DNA of 55,177 nt from Bacteroidetes bacterium RIFCSPLOWO2_12_FULL_35_15 (GTDB lineage: Bacteria; Bacteroidota; Bacteroidia; 2-12-FULL-35-15): NCBI GenBank assembly GCA_001769385.1, contig MEPB01000058.1, positions 77,166-132,342 on the forward strand, written 5' to 3'. Below, in pieces: positions 174 through 55,177 of this stretch. Each line of letters opens with the position of its first letter. The stretch's first letter is position 1. A program made the translations under genes and the position numbers. Under the pieces are notes generated by a model. It had not been told where the DNA came from, did not search any database, and was given only the letters and a program-made list of their open reading frames with translations.

Positions 174-209
174 GGTCACCCTGAGTTTGTCGAAGGGCGT
201 ATTTCGTAG
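174..209 (+). repeat. REP-like repeat, CCCT/AGGG stem variant
   Basis: A hairpin of the form GTCACCCTGA...TCGAAGGGCG, followed by TATTTCGTAG. The reverse complement of 27008-27042 is the same sequence with two differences, so this is a dispersed repeat present in both orientations. It stands alone here, with no facing partner. Confidence 0.75.
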
Positions 210-397: not shown

Positions 398-420
398 CAT
401 TCCGACCGAAGTGGAGGAAT
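398..420 (+). repeat. REP-like repeat, solo copy
   Basis: A single hairpin with arms ATTCC and GGAAT around GA-CCG-AAG-TGG-A. It matches the right-hand unit at 42348-42376 and the unit upstream of the GIY-YIG gene. It lies about 60 bases before the bcp start and no inverted partner is visible. Confidence 0.7.
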
Positions 421-482
421 TTTTATACTAGTTAAAAAAAATTGTACAGGAGTAAAAAAATCTCGACAAGTAAAATTAAATT

Positions 483-2210: not shown

Positions 2211-2300
2211 GTCATGCTGAACGATTGAAGTATCTGTTCTTGTAGCTGATTGTTTGCATAAAGTAATAAAGGAAAGATTCTTCGTTTCACTCAGAATGAC
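2211..2300. repeat. Inverted pair of REP-like hairpins (MITE-like)
   Basis: A 90-base unit starting GTCATGCTGA and ending TCAGAATGAC. The right half, read in reverse, is a hairpin with arms ATTCT and AGAAT followed by CTTT, the same scaffold as the units at 10340, 10706 and 42291. The left half is more diverged. It lies between recA and its candidate terminator. Confidence 0.7.
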
Positions 2301-7442: not shown

Positions 7443-10259
7443 TTATTTCAATTTGTTGTCGGATTCCGCTTTTGCTTTTAACAAAACATCGTCCGCTTTT
7501 TTATTTGCTTCATCCAGGATCTTCTGAACTTTTTTATCCACTTCTTTTTTTGCAGCAGGAGCAGCAGCTTTTGCAGCCACTTTTGCAACAGGATTGTTTG
7601 CTTCATTCACTGTTTTATCAACAGCCGCATATCCTTCGGCTTTTGTTTTGTCAGCCAATATTTTAGCATCTGCTTTTATTTTATCTGCTTGTGCCTGTGC
7701 ATCCTTCATTATTTTTTCTGCTTCTTCACGTGCTTTCTCTTTCGCCATATCAACGCCTTGAGTAATTATTTCTTTCACTTGTTCTTTGGCACTTTGTTCT
7801 GAATTAAACAGATCAGTTTTTATGGTTGGTTTTGAAACAGTACCACCGAACAAAGCTTTGATCTTCACTTTATCCCCCAGTTTCACATTGGTGCCGGCTT
7901 GTTTGTTGAGTTGATCAAGGGCACTTCCTGCAGCTGCATTTGCAGTTGAGCCGAATTCAGAACGAGGAATTTCTAATACCCAGGTATAATCAATAGTTTG
8001 ATCAAATCCGGTGGAGCCTTTTACTTTTCCGGTTATGTTTCCTGATTTTATTGGCATTTCATCTACTTCAACTCTTCCATCTTTAAATTTAAAACTAGCA
8101 TTGACATTTTCAAAGGTTAGTTTTTTATACTTCGGTTGCTTTAATGCATCAGCTAGTTTATTGATGGGTTCGAAGCCTTCCACCGAAACTGTTTTTGTTT
8201 GCAATTTACCATAACCGGCTAATGTATTTAATGCCGGACTCATATGTTCATCCAATTGACTTGCAAATTTTACGGTGGCACTCATTTTCCCTTTTGCATA
8301 TTTAGCAATAGGAGCAAGCTTTTCAACAGTGTTAAATGTTTTTACAGTTTTAGGGATATCAAAATTTGCAATGTCCATATCCATGTCAACCACAGGTTTC
8401 CTAGGGTTTTGTGTGTTATACATTCCACTCATTGACAATGTTCCTTCCACGTCATTCATTGTTAATTTCAGATCATCCAATTTCATTTGGCTGTCTTTAA
8501 TTGCCACACCGCCACTAACATTGGTGATAGTTAATTTATCATATAATAATTTTGAAATGGTAGTATTTAATTTAACATCAAGATTAGATGGAACCTCCAC
8601 AACTGCCATTGATGCTGTATCAGCTGCAACAGGAGTTGCAGGTTTTGCTGTTTCAGTACTTCCCATCAATTCATTGATGTCCATTAACGATGATCTTAAA
8701 TTAAATGAACCTTTTAATAAAGAATCTTTCAAAGCATATTGCAAAAAGTTTTCGATCTTCCCATCCAATTGAATATCGCTCTTACCCAGCTTTGCATCAA
8801 ATTGTGACAGCTCCACAAATTTTGGTGTAAAGTTTAAATACAATTTACTTATTTGAGTTGGATAACTTACTGTTTTTGATTTATAATTCATATCCAAAAC
8901 GGTAAGTGTTCCTTTGGCATCAAAATTTTCGTATTGTTGTTTTTCAATCGCACTCATTCTGCCTTTCATCTTAATGTCGGCTGTGATCATTCCATTCAGG
9001 TCATCTCCTTTTTCAAGAGGAATAACATCTTTTATAGTTGCTAAATTTATTTTAGCCAATACTTCTGTAATAATATTTGCATCCGAAACAGGAGTAGAAA
9101 CATGCATCTTCGCATCCACAGGATTTCCTCCCAACTCCACATGAAATTTATTTAAGTCGATAATGGTTGCATCAGGTATTCCTGTTTTATTATCAACTAC
9201 TAAATCAATTTGAATATTAGTTGCTGATTTTGGTAAAGCAGGATATTGGAACATCGCATCTTTCACCATTAATTTAATGCCGAATGCAGGCATCTTTTTG
9301 TCATTGTAGATCCCTTTTGCATAGCCATCCAATGCTAATGATCCTGTTGTTTTTACTTCTTTGAAATCTGCTGTATAAACGCCCGGGATGAGTGACAAAA
9401 TATTCTTAAATTCAGTTTGATTAGCTTTGAATTTCAGATCCATATCCATGTCATCTTTTGGCATTGCGAAGTATCCATCCAATCCTAAAGTTAGTTCATT
9501 GAATGAAAACTCATTTTCCTTAAATGTGAATTTGAAATTTGGCATATCTGCATCCATATCAACCTTTAGGCGGGTTTTTACTTTGTTCATGTAAGTTACA
9601 CCACCATAACTTAATGTGAATTTTTCAATCTCAGTTAATGTTTGCAAAAGAAAATTATCAGAAGTAAAATCACCACTTAACGTATGATTCATATTATACA
9701 ATTCAGTTTTCATTCCTAAAGAAGCATCATCATAAACAATGTAACCTCCTTTTATTTCAAACTTTTTCAATGTCATTTTGAATTTACTCGGCTCCTCCGC
9801 TGTTGCAGCTTTTGTGGTGTCGGTAGAAGGTTTGGTAATATCCCAGTTTGCTTTTCCATCTTTCAGAACCAATGCATGTATGCGAGGTTGGTCAATTACT
9901 ATCGTATTGATCTTGTATTGATCACCTTTTAGTACGCTCATCAGATTTAAACCAACAGTTAAGTTTTTTGAATACAACAAGGTGTCGCCAGCAAAATCAC
10001 CTGTGTTTGCAATGCTTACACTATCGATAGAAAGTGTAAAGTCCGGGAATGAACTGATCAGCGTGAGATCAAATTTTCCAAAGTTTACTTTAGCATTCAG
10101 GTTTTTATTGGCTTCATCTTTTACAAATTGCACAATTTGTTTTTTGAAAAGAAATGGTGCTGCTATAATTAATATCAGCAATACAAGAAAAGTAATTCCT
10201 GTCCATTTTAATATTCTACGGAATAAACTTTTTTTCTTTTTTAGTGTTTCAGTTGCCAT
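7443..10259 (-). CDS. AsmA family protein
   Basis: A large envelope protein of 938 residues with one N-terminal membrane helix (about residues 17-38) and a long periplasmic part. The segment after the helix (VKDEANKNLNAKVNFGKFDLTLISSFPDFTLSIDSVSI) is a typical AsmA N-terminal domain, and the beta-repeat region continues to about residue 800. AsmA-like proteins belong to the bridge-like lipid transfer group with TamB and YhdP and are linked to phospholipid movement to the outer membrane. That role is inferred here. The last 120 residues are an unusual alanine- and lysine-rich coiled coil (MAKEKAREEAEKIMKDA) not found in enterobacterial AsmA. The start at 10259 gives the basic residues KKKKSLFRR before the helix. 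Confidence 0.85.
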   Translation of the reverse strand: MATETLKKKKSLFRRILKWTGITFLVLLILIIAAPFLFKKQIVQFVKDEANKNLNAKVNFGKFDLTLISSFPDFTLSIDSVSIANTGDFAGDTLLYSKNLTVGLNLMSVLKGDQYKINTIVIDQPRIHALVLKDGKANWDITKPSTDTTKAATAEEPSKFKMTLKKFEIKGGYIVYDDASLGMKTELYNMNHTLSGDFTSDNFLLQTLTEIEKFTLSYGGVTYMNKVKTRLKVDMDADMPNFKFTFKENEFSFNELTLGLDGYFAMPKDDMDMDLKFKANQTEFKNILSLIPGVYTADFKEVKTTGSLALDGYAKGIYNDKKMPAFGIKLMVKDAMFQYPALPKSATNIQIDLVVDNKTGIPDATIIDLNKFHVELGGNPVDAKMHVSTPVSDANIITEVLAKINLATIKDVIPLEKGDDLNGMITADIKMKGRMSAIEKQQYENFDAKGTLTVLDMNYKSKTVSYPTQISKLYLNFTPKFVELSQFDAKLGKSDIQLDGKIENFLQYALKDSLLKGSFNLRSSLMDINELMGSTETAKPATPVAADTASMAVVEVPSNLDVKLNTTISKLLYDKLTITNVSGGVAIKDSQMKLDDLKLTMNDVEGTLSMSGMYNTQNPRKPVVDMDMDIANFDIPKTVKTFNTVEKLAPIAKYAKGKMSATVKFASQLDEHMSPALNTLAGYGKLQTKTVSVEGFEPINKLADALKQPKYKKLTFENVNASFKFKDGRVEVDEMPIKSGNITGKVKGSTGFDQTIDYTWVLEIPRSEFGSTANAAAGSALDQLNKQAGTNVKLGDKVKIKALFGGTVSKPTIKTDLFNSEQSAKEQVKEIITQGVDMAKEKAREEAEKIMKDAQAQADKIKADAKILADKTKAEGYAAVDKTVNEANNPVAKVAAKAAAPAAKKEVDKKVQKILDEANKKADDVLLKAKAESDNKLK

Positions 10260-10339: not shown

Positions 10340-10368
10340 GTCATCTCGACCGCAGCGGAGAGATCTTT
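10340..10368 (+). repeat. Left REP-like terminal inverted repeat of the GIY-YIG unit
   Basis: A hairpin ATCTC-GA-CCG-CAG-CGG-A-GAGAT preceded by GTC and followed by CTTT. It matches the reverse complement of 10706-10734 at 24 of 29 positions. Four of the five differences are paired changes that keep the stem intact (CT/AG against TC/GA). Confidence 0.85.
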
Positions 10369-10390
10369 ATATTCGTAGCTGAAATTCCTA

Positions 10391-10699
10391 TTAAAAAGCA
10401 CCCTCCGAAAATACATTGTGATTCATAAAAATCCAATTCGGATTCATTGTCGAAATTAAATTTTCTTTTTTCTTTCTACTCCAATTTTTTAATTGTGTTT
10501 CTCTTGCAATTGCATATTTAGCATTCAGAAACCTTTCCCAATAAATTAAATTGTAACAATAATATTCTCCAGCAAATGTTCCAGTTTTTCCTTTGTTTTC
10601 GTAATGTTCCGAAAGTCTTCTTTTTAAATTATTTGTAATGCCTATGTATAAAACTTCTTTATTCGGATTTGTTGTAATGTAAATAAAATAGTTTTTCAT
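10391..10699 (-). CDS. GIY-YIG nuclease family protein
   Basis: A small single-domain GIY-YIG protein of 102 residues. The motifs are in order: FIYITTN (the GIY strand), LYIGITNNLKRRLSEH with the catalytic tyrosine and arginine, the conserved glutamate in AIARETQLKNW, and MNPNW near the end. All catalytic positions expected for the UvrC/Uri-like fold are present, so the enzyme is probably active on DNA. Proteins of this length are multicopy in many Bacteroidota. The start codon is 7 bases downstream of the right-hand repeat, whose end supplies AATCTTTG, one base from the TAnnTTTG promoter element. The gene is thus packaged between inverted repeats and may act on them. Its natural target is unknown. 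Confidence 0.85.
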   Translation of the reverse strand: MKNYFIYITTNPNKEVLYIGITNNLKRRLSEHYENKGKTGTFAGEYYCYNLIYWERFLNAKYAIARETQLKNWSRKKKENLISTMNPNWIFMNHNVFSEGAF

Positions 10700-10705
10700 A
10701 AATAC

Positions 10706-10734
10706 AAAGATTCCTCCGCTTCGGTCGGAATGAC
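10706..10734 (-). repeat. Right REP-like terminal inverted repeat of the GIY-YIG unit
   Basis: Read on the minus strand: GTC then the hairpin ATTCC-GA-CCG-AAG-CGG-A-GGAAT, then CTTT. It is inverted relative to 10340-10368. Its tail, AATCTTTG, could double as part of the promoter of the GIY-YIG gene. Confidence 0.85.
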
Positions 10735-10740
10735 TTCCAA

Positions 10741-11823
10741 TTAAATTTTCGAATTAATTTTATTTCGTAATAAATGATCCATAAGAACGATTGCTGCCAT
10801 TGCCTCCACAACAGGAACAGCACGGGGCAATACGCAAGGGTCATGCCTTCCTTTACCTGTTATTTCAGTTTCCTCGCCTTTTGAATTAATTGTATTTTGT
10901 TTTTGCATGATCGTAGCAATTGGTTTAAATGCTACTCTGAAATAAATATCTTCGCCATTACTTATTCCTCCTTGTATTCCACCCGAATGATTTGTTTTGG
11001 TTTTTACTTGATCATCATTTATAATAAAAAGATCATTGTGTTGGGAGCCCAACATTTTTGTTCCTTCAAAACCACTTCCGTATTCAAACCCTTTCACGGC
11101 ATTAATACTTAACATAGCCTTTCCAAGATCTGCATGCAATTTATCAAACACGGGCTCACCCATCCCAACGGGTGTTCCTTTGATTACACATGATATAACC
11201 CCACCAATTGTATCACCTGATTTTCGGACCTGCTCAATTTTTTGGATCATTGCTTCCGCAACTAATTCATCCGGGCAACGAACAAGGTTGGATTCTGCTT
11301 TATTCAAATCAAGATGATGGTAAGCCTTTAATAATTTAATATCACCAACTTGCGAAGTGTAAGCTTTTATGCTAATTCCATTTTGCTTCAAAAATAATTT
11401 TGCAATTGCTCCGGCAACAACCCTGCTAACTGTTTCTCTTGCTGATGATCTTCCGCCACCACGAGGGTCACGCATTCCGTATTTTGCATCGTAAGAGTAA
11501 TCTGCATGTGAAGGGCGATACACATCTATATTGTTTTCGTAATCGTTTGATCGTTGATTTTCATTACGGATGATAAAACCAATTGGTGTTCCTGTAGTTT
11601 TACCTTCGAAAATTCCGGAAAGGAGTTCTACTTTGTCGCCTTCTTTACGCTGAGTGGTGATGTGTGATTGCCCGGGACGTCTTCTGTCCAATTCGGATTG
11701 AACAAAATCCAGATCAATTTGCAATCCGGCAGGACAACCATCAATGATGCCTCCCAAGGCTGCGCCATGAGATTCGCCAAAGTTGGTTAAAGTAAATAGT
11801 TTTCCAAAGGTATTACCTGCCAT
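10741..11823 (-). CDS. aroC: Chorismate synthase
   Basis: Chorismate synthase of 360 residues, full length. It converts 5-enolpyruvylshikimate 3-phosphate to chorismate using reduced FMN, the last shared step of aromatic amino acid, folate and quinone synthesis, in the cytoplasm. Signature regions are the N-terminal GESHGAALG (residues 16-24), [16 protein letters not shown], and [22 protein letters not shown], and the FMN-binding stretch continues to [18 protein letters not shown]. The last codons (NKINSKI) lie 6 bases from the GIY-YIG element, so that element sits just behind the gene without breaking it. A TAnnTTTG element lies upstream at 11841-11848. Confidence 0.97.
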
Positions 11824-27007: not shown

Positions 27008-27046
27008 CTACGAAATACGCCCTTCGACAAGTTCAGGGTGACTACG
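27008..27046 (-). repeat. REP-like repeat, CCCT/AGGG stem variant
   Basis: The inverted counterpart of 174-209: the reverse complement differs at two positions over 35 bases. It starts 2 bases after the moxR stop, inside the moxR-bat operon, where a hairpin could modulate mRNA stability between the genes. Confidence 0.75.
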
Positions 27047-38108: not shown

Positions 38109-38194
38109 GTCATTTCAACTCCTTCGAATTTGTTCAGGATAAGCTCCGGGAAAAATCTAATTTAAAAAAAGATTTTGCCTGTGGTCGAAATGAC
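38109..38194. repeat. Inverted pair of REP-like hairpins (MITE-like)
   Basis: An 86-base unit starting GTCATTTC and ending GAAATGAC. The right half, read in reverse, is GTCATTTCGACCACAGGC then AAAATC, the same scaffold as the GIY-YIG element ends. The left half contains an extra TTCGAATTTGTTCAGG segment. It lies between rho and the PorE-like gene. Confidence 0.65.
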
Positions 38195-42290: not shown

Positions 42291-42376
42291 GTCATTTCGA
42301 CCAAGCGGAGAAATCTTTCCAATGTTTATAATTGTGCTGATAAATTTAAAGATTCCTCCACTTCGGTCGGAATGAC
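42291..42376. repeat. Inverted pair of REP-like hairpins, best gene-free copy
   Basis: An 86-base unit. The left hairpin (GTC-ATTTC-GA-CC-AAG-CGG-A-GAAAT-CTTT) and the right hairpin (read in reverse GTC-ATTCC-GA-CCG-AAG-TGG-A-GGAAT-CTTT) face each other around about 30 AT-rich bases. The ends match those of the GIY-YIG element at 10340-10734, so this looks like its gene-less version. Confidence 0.8.
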
Positions 42377-44266: not shown

Positions 44267-44321
44267 TTCTCGACAAACTCGAAAGGACTTCGCGCGATAG
44301 TCAATTCGAGTTTGTCGAGAA
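44267..44321. repeat. Perfect 17-base inverted repeat
   Basis: TTCTCGACAAACTCGAA (44267-44283) and its exact complement at 44305-44321, with a 21-base spacer. It resembles the TTTGTCGA core of the repeat at 174-209. It lies upstream of the subtilisin gene and upstream of the divergent helicase gene, so it could be read as an operator, but it looks like a dispersed repeat. Confidence 0.7.
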
Positions 44322-53457: not shown

Positions 53458-53607
53458 TAAAATATTAATAGTTTTGATTGTGCAATTTGCATTGCAAAAA
53501 ATGACATAATTTACGCGTTAATTACATATTATTAAAAAAAACGTTCTTTGTAAACAACTGATTTTAAACTAGTAGTATCAATTATTTACTATCCGTTCGG
53601 TGTAGTA

Positions 53608-54609
53608 ATGTCTGGTAGAAACTTTACTTCTGAAAATGGATATAGGTACGGATTTAATGGCCAAGAGAAGGATGATGAGATAATGGGTAAAGGCAATAGC
53701 CTTGAATTTCTTTATCGAATATATGACCCACGATTAGGTAGATTCTTAAGTCTGGATCCAATGGCAAAAGAATTCCCTTGGAATTCACCATACTCATTTG
53801 CTGAAAATAGGGTGATTGATGCAAATGAATTAGAAGGCCGTGAATTTAATTTGGTAAATTCTGTTGACAATCAAGTTCAAAAGCAAGTTGCCCAAATAAA
53901 GAAAGTAGGGCTAAATGATGCCACATCTACAGTACAAATTCAAGCTGGTGCGGGAATGTCTGTATTGTATACTATTGAAGGTACAGCAAACTTAACTACA
54001 TCAGCTGGGCAACTTCAATTTGGAAGGACTGTTGTTAATAATTATGTTAATTACACAAAAACTCCAGAAGGACGTGTAGCAAATTTAATTAATCCTGTTT
54101 CAACATTTTTCTATACAACTTTCTTTAAAAGTGATGTTGATAATTTATCAACAGCTATTGAAAACAAGGATTATTATAATGGTTCAAAGGCTGCAACAAA
54201 TATTGCTATAACGAGTGCTTCAATGGTAACAATGTTTAAAGGATTGTTAAAAGGCTCTCCTGTTGAAGTAGCAAAAGTTTCTAATAATGTAGCATCTGAA
54301 TTCATGTCAAGTGCGACACAAGAATGGGGGAATGGTCTAACGGAAGCTGGCCGTGCACTGCAAAAGCATGCTGGTAGAGCAGGTTCATCTTTTGCTGATG
54401 AAAAATTTTATCAAAAAACGGGGAACGATGCTGCAATTAAATTAATTAATGATATTACAAATTCAAGTGATAAAATGACAAGGGCTGCACCGAGAGGAGG
54501 TCTTGAAGTTTATGACACAAAAACAGGAAAAGGGTACGCAATTTCAAGAGAAGGAAAATTTAATGGATTTAGAGATTTAAAAGAAATTAAAAAAGATGAA
54601 AAGCATTGA
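53608..54609 (+). CDS. Orphan RHS tip with C-terminal toxin-like domain
   Basis: A protein of 333 residues from the ATG at 53608; the frame is open from 53554 and the homology begins at the PFG codons at 53593. It starts within the RHS repeat-associated core (MSGRNFTSENGYRYGFNGQE, RIYDPRLGRFLSLDP) and lacks all preceding RHS repeats. After the core motif comes a variable linker, then a C-terminal domain of about 100 residues (GNGLTEAGRALQKHAGRAGS, and GLEVYDTKTGKGYAISREGK) that resembles small ribonuclease-like toxin tips of RHS/CDI proteins. The family is a recollection, not a search result. The module has no secretion signal, so it is probably a displaced tip kept for recombination with a full RHS gene. 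Confidence 0.8.
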   Translation: MSGRNFTSENGYRYGFNGQEKDDEIMGKGNSLEFLYRIYDPRLGRFLSLDPMAKEFPWNSPYSFAENRVIDANELEGREFNLVNSVDNQVQKQVAQIKKVGLNDATSTVQIQAGAGMSVLYTIEGTANLTTSAGQLQFGRTVVNNYVNYTKTPEGRVANLINPVSTFFYTTFFKSDVDNLSTAIENKDYYNGSKAATNIAITSASMVTMFKGLLKGSPVEVAKVSNNVASEFMSSATQEWGNGLTEAGRALQKHAGRAGSSFADEKFYQKTGNDAAIKLINDITNSSDKMTRAAPRGGLEVYDTKTGKGYAISREGKFNGFRDLKEIKKDEKH

Positions 54610-55027: not shown

Positions 55028-55177
55028 CCGTTCGGTGCAGAAATGCCGGGTAGAAACTTTACTTCTGAAAATGGCTATAGGTACGGCTTTAATGGAAAAG
55101 AGAAGGATGACGAGGTTAAAGGAAATGGAAACAGTTTGGATTTTGGAGGAAGGATATATGACTCTCGTTTAGGCAGA
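55028..55177 (+). CDS. Second orphan RHS tip, partial at window end
   Basis: An open frame starting right after a TGA at 55025 with PFGAEMPGRNFTSENGYRYG, then FNGKEKDDEVKGNGN and RIYDSRLGR, to the window end. The ATG at 55043 gives MPGRNF. It parallels the first tip from the same PFG codons, with many shared bases, but its upstream sequence is unrelated. It is thus another RHS C-terminal module without the repeat body. Its toxin domain lies beyond the window. Confidence 0.75.

Follow-up and report, generated by a model that had tools for sequence, protein, structure and literature searches.

The window, the whole stretch of 55,177 nt that was analysed, is part of a 5.39 Mb draft genome (G000). 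At 10340-10734 it contains a unit in which a GIY-YIG gene is the sole gene between two inverted hairpins, with the GTCA tags of the hairpins outermost. The neighbours of the unit, named by reading their sequences, are aroC (10741-11823) and the gene of an AsmA-like protein (7443-10259). The features of the unit and the other hairpins of the window are as follows.

10340..10734, no strand, 395 bp: whole unit, GIY-YIG gene between inverted hairpins
10340..10368, plus strand: distal hairpin, on the 3' side of the gene; tag GTCA, stem ATCTC/GAGAT, inner CCG-CAG-CGG, ends ATCTTT
10391..10699, minus strand: GIY-YIG nuclease gene, 309 nt with stop, 102 aa
10706..10734, minus strand: proximal hairpin, on the 5' side of the gene; tag GTCA, stem ATTCC/GGAAT, inner CCG-AAG-CGG, ends ATCTTT
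42291..42376, no strand: gene-less inverted doublet of the window hairpin family (REPIN-like)
398..421, plus strand: single copy of the window hairpin, tag eroded
38109..38194, no strand: decayed GTCAT-tagged inverted pair, GTCATTTC...GAAATGAC
2211..2300, no strand: GTCAT-tagged inverted pair of another stem family; 2278-2300 on the minus strand reads GTCATTCTGAGTGAAACGAAGAATC, left arm decayed
175..197, plus strand: hairpin of the CCCTGA..TCGAAGGG family
27020..27042, minus strand: hairpin of the CCCTGA..TCGAAGGG family

The initial annotation had placed a 309-base GIY-YIG gene between 29-base inverted units (10340-10368 and 10706-10734), and these coordinates are exact. It had also read four of the five differences between the 29-nt arms as compensatory; they are two base-pair swaps (ATCTC/GAGAT versus ATTCC/GGAAT), and the fifth lies in the loop. 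The tag is found in the context G-T-GTCA on one side and is preceded by A on the other. The gene-less pair at 42291-42376 had rightly been assigned to the window hairpin family, and over 46 nt at its right it is an 85% match to the corresponding end of the gene-bearing unit. Two further pairs (38109-38194 and 2211-2300), reported as more diverged copies, are GTCAT-tagged inverted pairs, but of other stem families or decayed and not simply diverged copies. No match to Rfam was obtained in the window at gathering thresholds. The window also contains a perfect 25-nt inverted repeat with a 5-nt loop at 84-138 (TAAAACCTCACCCAACCCTCTCCTT) and a direct repeat of 117 nt with 82% identity (53593-53709 and 55028-55144).

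The 102-aa protein matches PF01541 (E 2.2e-17). Y7, Y18, G20, R28, H32 and E67, which we take from the GIY-YIG literature to be the catalytic residues, are invariant among 15 aligned sequences chosen from the R clade (see below), and the protein is by domain and conserved residues a member of the GIY-YIG superfamily. It is not an IS200/IS605-like HUH Y1 transposase of the kind found in REP-RAYT systems; PF01541 and the GIY-YIG fold are present instead. The AlphaFold2 model has a pLDDT of 93. The top match by both structure and sequence is UPF0213 1zg2 (E 2.3e-4), followed by Slx1 (E >0.02). Slx1-type GIY-YIG nucleases cut branched DNA. NCBIfam gave no match over the cut-off, and PADLOC gave weak matches only (best E 0.0012), which make no case for a known defence system. 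The weak matches in PHROGs include homing endonuclease families (best 8.3e-5).

A degenerate pattern of the window hairpin (up to three mismatches) was found at three places in the window and in none of 100 dinucleotide shuffles. With looser criteria, set for hairpins of this general shape, nine places were found versus a shuffled mean of 3.4 (maximum 6, 30 shuffles); some of the nine, perhaps those at 44300 and 48650, may be due to chance. Hairpins of the general form are common in the source genome (40 in 220 kb versus 9-18 in five shuffles), and the pattern of the window family has 23 exact fits there, the reversed control pattern none.

Genome G000 contains 12 PF01541 matches. Six of them are short genes (L001, L002, L003, L004, L006, L007) between GTCA-tagged hairpins, L001 only loosely so, and the stem sequence of the hairpins varies from gene to gene. 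The window hairpin was considered as the one family of this genome and rejected as such, the six R-clade genes having different hairpins. Three matches (L005, L010, L009) lie at tRNA genes, L009 apparently being a further copy of L010 that lies at another contig end, and the other three are within open frames of 607, 456 and 735 residues. Around the nuclease gene of L002 (about 1190-2080) an array of GTCATTTCGAAC-type hairpins is present in both orientations on both sides. Of nine PF05635 (23S IVP) loci examined in the same genome, four (L344, L345, L347, L348) are flanked by inverted sequences with scores of 16-25, in most cases simple A+T-rich motifs; PF05635 is possibly another small gene with repeats of its own.

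Association of the nuclease genes with tagged hairpins

Homologues of the nuclease were found by protein search in 30 of 36 genomes, all placed in one genus. Flanks were taken from 88 matches, and both were at least 150 nt long in 83; the two fragments of the G006 gene were combined into one, and a second fragment of the G031 gene was left to its neighbour. When the two flanks of a locus were compared consensus-free, an inverted match of score 16 or more was obtained in 55/83 loci versus 5.1% of 956 flank pairs from different genomes. By eye, most of these arms hold GTCA at or near their start. Matches in direct orientation reached the same score in 38/83, because many loci hold arrays or tRNA repeats. 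With the GTCA tag required, a score of 16 was reached in 42/83 loci versus 3.5% of 1448 mismatched pairs, and a start-anchored tagged score of 10 in 52/82 versus 1/79 and 1/81 at positions shifted by 900 nt.

The R clade comprises 69 tree rows and one fragment (70 rows), of which three have short flanks and 67 full ones; a GTCA-tagged inverted pair is present at 52 of the 67 in the 36 genomes. Class T, 17 tree rows outside the R clade and mostly at tRNA genes, has the pair at none of the 14 loci with full flanks. It was likewise absent from the one long-ORF match (L008, 0/1), from control ORFs of at least 150 residues in the window and a 220 kb control sequence (0/175), and from the surroundings of E. 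coli yhbQ. Among ORFs of 80-135 residues it was found at 1/112, and that one is the window nuclease gene. The proposal of the initial annotation depended on flanking above chance, which is what the R clade displays (52/67 versus 0/175 controls); an enzyme gene between inverted copies of a dispersed repeat is also the arrangement of REP-RAYT systems. Against this reading count the 15/67 R-clade genes without a detectable tagged pair at the threshold used. Some of them have looser or one-sided hairpins, and they include the closest homologue of the window nuclease (L012, 74% identity), with cognate hairpins only downstream.

The loci of class T have an organisation of their own. At L038, L078, L079, L082, L083, L086 and L088 (about 1380-1900 in gene orientation) a tRNA and a terminator, partial in L078, precede the GIY-YIG gene, and a partial tRNA copy follows in which the anticodon arm is replaced by a hairpin, e.g. 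TCCCGAC..GTCGGGA. The tRNA genes are of several isotypes, and direct repeats score at least 27 in 12 of 15 loci with flanks. Beside the GIY-YIG genes of L005 (about 1351-1500) and L086 (about 1171-1460), fragments derived from tRNA are repeated, with hairpins inserted or swapped, and resemble small tRNA-derived repeats.

An alignment of 15 R-clade proteins was scanned, by protein alone, against bacterial and archaeal genomes, and the best 80 of at least 520 confirmed places were kept. Some of the 80 belong to the same genus, and L161, L164, L165, L168 and L172 repeat places from the genus search. Among these best 80 of at least 520, the consensus-free score of 16 was reached in 45/77 versus 5.4% of 1483 mismatched pairs, and the tagged pair was found at 52 of 74 full-flank loci versus 1/70 and 2/77 at shifted positions. 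GTCA was present upstream in 68/74 and TGAC downstream in 74/74; at the shifted positions GTCA and TGAC occurred in 25 and 36 of 70 and in 39 and 40 of 77. When flanks of different genera are mispaired, a score of 10 is reached in 12.6% of 1353 pairs, a rate explained by the sharing of hairpin families and still far below 52/74; at a score of 16 the figures for the best 80 of at least 520 are 34/74 true pairs and 2.3% of the mismatched pairs from different genera.

Records not labelled Bacteroidota have the tagged pair in 12/18 and the remaining records in 40/56, again among the best 80 of at least 520; the former include Nitrospinaceae, Hydrogenophilus, Desulfobulbaceae, Fibrobacter and Acidobacteria. 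Without four doubtful placements (L171, L217 in Ignavibacteriales, L238, and L234 in Limnohabitans, possibly a binning error) the count outside Bacteroidota is 8/14. In the alphaproteobacterial class of G036 the nuclease occurs in 61/190 genomes. There, 28 of 29 further loci have full flanks, and 13/28 have the tagged pair versus 0/27 and 0/28 at shifted positions. The arrangement is found again in several bacterial phyla, where nuclease and hairpin are likewise of matching types. A REPtron-like role of the nuclease in this lineage had been suggested by the initial annotation, and the flanking together with the co-variation and the unoccupied sites described below supports the role, but the system is not confined to the lineage.

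Hairpin type, nuclease type and copy number

In a maximum-likelihood tree of 87 proteins (88 columns) the genes are largely grouped by hairpin family, as expected if nuclease phylogeny tracks hairpin sequence; many forks are unsure, and L060 stands beside L001 as an exception. Protein and hairpin distances at 45 loci are correlated (Mantel/Spearman rho 0.46, reached in 0/2000 permutations), also for the 912 pairs below 70% identity (Spearman 0.33, 0/2000 permutations). In 58 of 65 comparisons, the hairpin is more similar to that of the nearest nuclease in a foreign genome than to that of a more distantly related paralogue in the same genome.

For the shape of the hairpins, 180 distinct arms were used, from those loci of the three sets that pass the arm-to-arm test. 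Folding of 30-nt arms gave a mean z of -0.94 (controls -0.10), with 22% versus 5% in the best 5%. Thermodynamic folding is thus only modestly better than in shuffles, which was counted against the best reading, and since this plain energy result is weak, stem compensation was tested directly. In 155/180 arms the reverse complement of the 4-mer behind GTCA occurs downstream, versus 17% with the four bases of another arm and 20% in shuffled tails; 30 different stem 4-mers are present, of which 24 find a partner. The 5' stem is followed by GA in 142/180 arms, and GA is the commonest pair of letters before the 3' partner (84 cases). These letters suggest a GA-containing internal loop in the hairpin. 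The window family and others have a stem of 4-5 bp and then an internal loop; several alphaproteobacterial, CCCGTG and TCCTGAA types have a stem of roughly 8-9 bp opening with A-T and a loop of 4-5 nt. The window arms begin with GTCA and not with GTAG, the tag of REP-RAYT systems.

Copies of the ATTGC type are present in 9/9 genomes with the matching nuclease clade versus 10/27 without it, those of the CCCGTG type in 7/7 versus 4/29, of the TCCTGAA type in 5/5 versus 3/31 and of the GCGGAGTC type, covering only the subfamily with three bases at that place, in 3/3 versus 5/33. The figures with nuclease are partly trivial because they include the flanks of the genes themselves. When two copies are subtracted for every nuclease gene, they become 8/9 for ATTGC (rank test 4e-4), 7/7 for CCCGTG (9e-6), 2/5 versus 3/31 for TCCTGAA (Fisher p 0.13, rank test 0.024) and 3/3 for GCGGAGTC (0.001), all p values being optimistic because the genomes are related. 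Equal abundance of the repeats in genomes lacking the gene, which the initial annotation had named as evidence against its proposal, was not found: copy number is higher with the cognate nuclease, clearly in three of the four tested hairpin families and weakly in the fourth.

Counted against the best reading are the weak TCCTGAA result and ATTGC hairpins in genomes without a detected cognate nuclease, with 17 copies in G012, 16 in G008 and 14 in G034. The window hairpin type occurs in 13/36 genomes (23 copies in G000, 26 in G035, 5 in G017). G007 (83% complete) has a nuclease of the window's clade (L041) and 0 copies of the strict window hairpin pattern, which also counts against the reading.

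Occupied and unoccupied sites and the ends of the units

The gene aroC is present in 34/36 genomes, and loci were obtained from 30. The AsmA-like gene follows in 27 (26 by motif scan, G027 by eye); G019 and G025 differ, and G011 ends. Among these 27 genomes only G000 has the gene-bearing unit. At the same site G035 has a gene-less doublet of the ATTTCGACC type, G008 and G026 have ATTGC-type doublets, and G031 and G027 have half-decayed doublets. G023, the nearest genome by aroC (88%), has a lone distal hairpin and about 20 nt of the unit interior, a sequence that looks like a remnant of a gene-bearing unit. In the other 20 of the 27 genomes a tagged hairpin was not seen in the gap, G009 perhaps having a decayed one.

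The L007 unit of G000 has matching inverted ends, and its flanks (88% and 86% identical) abut within 5 bp in G023; the short intergenic stretch is diverged there, and the junction can be placed only to within a few bases. Flank matches overlap or lie within 23 bp of each other in twelve further genomes (G035, G032, G034, G019, G004, G033, G015, G011, G030, G028, G020, G022), and G002, G027 and G031 have a single hairpin of another family at this site. The protein match of L007 contains a stop, so this copy may be dead. At least one unit is a lineage-specific insertion, and the comparison of occupied with empty sites proposed in the initial annotation gave both, between species, at the aroC and L007 sites.

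The ends were analysed on 20 gene-less doublets from G029 and G013, chosen as doublets. Such doublets are numerous, have GTC tags pointing outward and are 68-70 bp long in G029 and 80-82 bp in G013. Identity in the spacer is 0.69 and 0.73 versus 0.40 when shuffled; just outside GTCA...TGAC it is 0.44 in G029 and about 0.3 in G013. For at least 3/9 doublets of G029 (L296, L299, L300) the similarity continues past the tag, which places them inside a longer repeat; this counts against the best reading, and the ends are better defined in G013. A target duplication of at least 3 nt was found in 0/20 doublets (k = 3, 4, 5), and one of k = 2 in 1/20. GTCA is preceded by C at 29/40 doublet ends and by T at 7/40 in the two genomes, as in the CGTC/TGTC tag that CGTC-tagged REPs carry at one end.

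The element-like ends continue inward. By eye, 11 CCCGTG doublets of G013 have an ATCTGT end in 8/11 and an ATCTCAT or ATCTCAC end in 10/11, and CCCGTG gene-bearing units of several genomes have ATCTG[TC][TC]AA on the gene start side in 7/8 and ATCTCAT on the other side in 5/8. The unit of G013 itself (L023) is of the ATCTGT type on either side, unlike the asymmetric doublets of that genome; this counts against the best reading. From the shared subterminal ends, the gene-less form would seem to have arisen from the gene-bearing one by deletion.

At the lysC site of G026 (L326, G026:C8:6450-7130) a small ORF lies between inverted GTAGGCAATTG-type repeats; its product, named by sequence reading, looks like a 23S-rRNA-IVP four-helix-bundle protein. 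Three genomes (L328, L329, L330) have at this site a doublet of the CACACCCCT..CCCCTCTCAAGAGGGG type, which is a different repeat family.

Interpretation and comparison with known systems

The unit is probably a gene-bearing (autonomous) mobile repeat with a GIY-YIG nuclease specific for its own hairpin family, by which gene-less doublets would be moved in trans. The tagged hairpin would extrude on single-stranded or cruciform DNA, and the nuclease, which shares its fold with the branched-DNA nuclease Slx1, would recognise the stem and, in many families, the GA internal loop and would cut at the GTC foot of the hairpin. The piece bounded by GTCA...TGAC would be released, or a copy made of it, and host repair would join it in at another place without duplicating the target. 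The gene-less doublets, of about 65-86 bp and with the same ends, would be internal-deletion derivatives moved in trans. Binding, the position of the cut, the joining step and the nuclease as the mover are the parts of this scheme that we infer. We know of no GIY-YIG enzyme that joins DNA, so another factor would be needed.

Hairpins of the general form are frequent in the source genome (the 40 in 220 kb noted above), and generic intergenic hairpins such as terminators or REPs might merely happen to flank small genes. Such a chance or local effect is hardly credible: it was rejected on the shifted positions, the control ORFs and the genes outside the R clade, which give 0 to 3%, while even mismatched pairs from different genera (12.6% of 1353) stay far below 52/74 and nuclease and hairpin types co-vary. 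It is improbable, if less extremely so, that the nuclease serves the host in trimming hairpins or in repair, stays beside its substrate and limits the repeats rather than spreading them. The fold match to Slx1-type nucleases, with their activity on branched DNA, would fit such an enzyme, as would E. coli YhbQ, which is small, chromosomally encoded, of the GIY-YIG type and annotated as a nuclease of the DNA damage response. However, yhbQ has no tagged pair alongside, a genome holds several divergent gene copies, some with stops, at least one unit is a lineage-specific insertion, and copy number is higher, not lower, with the cognate nuclease.

A somewhat stronger, though still unlikely, alternative is that the doublets are moved by another agent (an IS200/RAYT-like HUH enzyme in trans, or template switching in replication) and that the GIY-YIG gene is a homing-type parasite which took up residence in doublets and propagates itself by cutting those of its own family that lack the gene. 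The homing endonucleases among the weak PHROGs matches (best 8.3e-5), the large excess of hairpin copies over gene copies and the hairpin populations without a detected cognate nuclease speak for it. The common subterminal ends of gene-bearing and gene-less forms speak against it, as do the apparent remnant at the aroC site of G023, which would be gene loss rather than insertion, and the copy number that clearly follows the nuclease in 3/4 families; in addition, the published survey of CGTC units, as far as its accessible text goes, has no RAYT or IS200 transposase flanked by them (PMC3733652). The autonomous mobile repeat with its own nuclease is preferred.

The repeats are closest to those of Di Nocera et al. 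2013 (PMC3733652), whose accessible text describes CGTC-tagged palindromic repeats in five phyla, with Bacteroidetes and Proteobacteria among them, with a CGTC/TGTC tag, opening A-T pairs and dimers, apparently without a dedicated transposase and with no RAYT or other IS200 transposase flanked by the units. Compared by description only, the tag, the phyla and, broadly, the A-T opening are as in the hairpins reported here, among which inverted dimers also occur. L252, L253 and L281 match the form given in the accessible text of the survey including the CCA tails, and L258, L279 and L283 are close to it; several families here differ from that form by shorter stems and a GA internal loop, and some by TCT tails or by GTCAG/GTCAC in place of GTCAT (PMC3733652). 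On the best reading the GIY-YIG protein would be the missing enzyme of the CGTC-tagged REPs, cleavage and movement being ascribed to it. The initial annotation knew of no description of the system. Among the open-access papers listed in a literature search, none was found that links GIY-YIG proteins to REP-type repeats, which does not prove absence; the hairpins, however, resemble the named CGTC-tagged REPs as far as the survey is accessible. The repeat side and the architecture are already known, and the enzyme side would be new.

Palindromic REP repeats are a common feature of bacterial genomes. CGTC-tagged REPs are one of the two published superfamilies and, in the accessible text, were reported without a dedicated transposase (PMC3733652). 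The candidate is one gene of 100 residues, type-matched to the hairpin, in Bacteroidota, Pseudomonadota and other phyla, and the question of the missing transposase is now testable with one protein and one oligonucleotide. If true, the reading points to a function for many small GIY-YIG genes that stand alone. The many nuclease-hairpin pairs that co-vary form a natural data set on how a small nuclease reads a DNA hairpin. More tentatively, with chances a little below even, GIY-YIG nucleases may be an unrecognised enzymatic class of bacterial DNA transposition that mobilises CGTC-tagged REPs in many phyla by cutting the tagged hairpin, with hairpin-specific variants from co-evolution of stem and protein and with related nucleases at home in tRNA genes with a swapped anticodon-arm hairpin.

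Other known systems share single traits with the unit. UPF0213 / YhbQ proteins are small GIY-YIG proteins of the fold and size of the window nuclease and differ in that E. coli yhbQ is without a tagged hairpin pair alongside. Free-standing GIY-YIG homing endonucleases are likewise small, selfish-looking nuclease genes with unoccupied sites in relatives; here, unlike in them, the unit ends are hairpins, many gene-less copies lie elsewhere and a fixed home gene was not seen. MITEs and IS elements have inverted ends and gene-less derivatives of a gene-bearing element, and they are unlike the present system, in which target-site duplication is absent (0/20 doublets, at least 3 nt) and the unit has no other gene. 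The closest likeness in architecture is to REP/REPIN-RAYT systems (TnpA_REP; REPtrons), in which REPINs are thought to be moved in trans by RAYTs: small tagged hairpins, inverted pairs, doublets of near-fixed length scattered within a genome, and an enzyme gene between inverted copies with the enzyme type matched to the hairpin type. The enzyme there is a Y1 HUH transposase and the tag GTAG, whereas here the enzyme is GIY-YIG (PF01541) and the tag (C)GTCA, many hairpins having GA on both sides of the inner loop. Because enzyme class and tag differ, the unit is a REPtron-like element and not a member of REP-RAYT; by this analogy, and as the best reading, a GIY-YIG nuclease would play the part of the RAYT in it.
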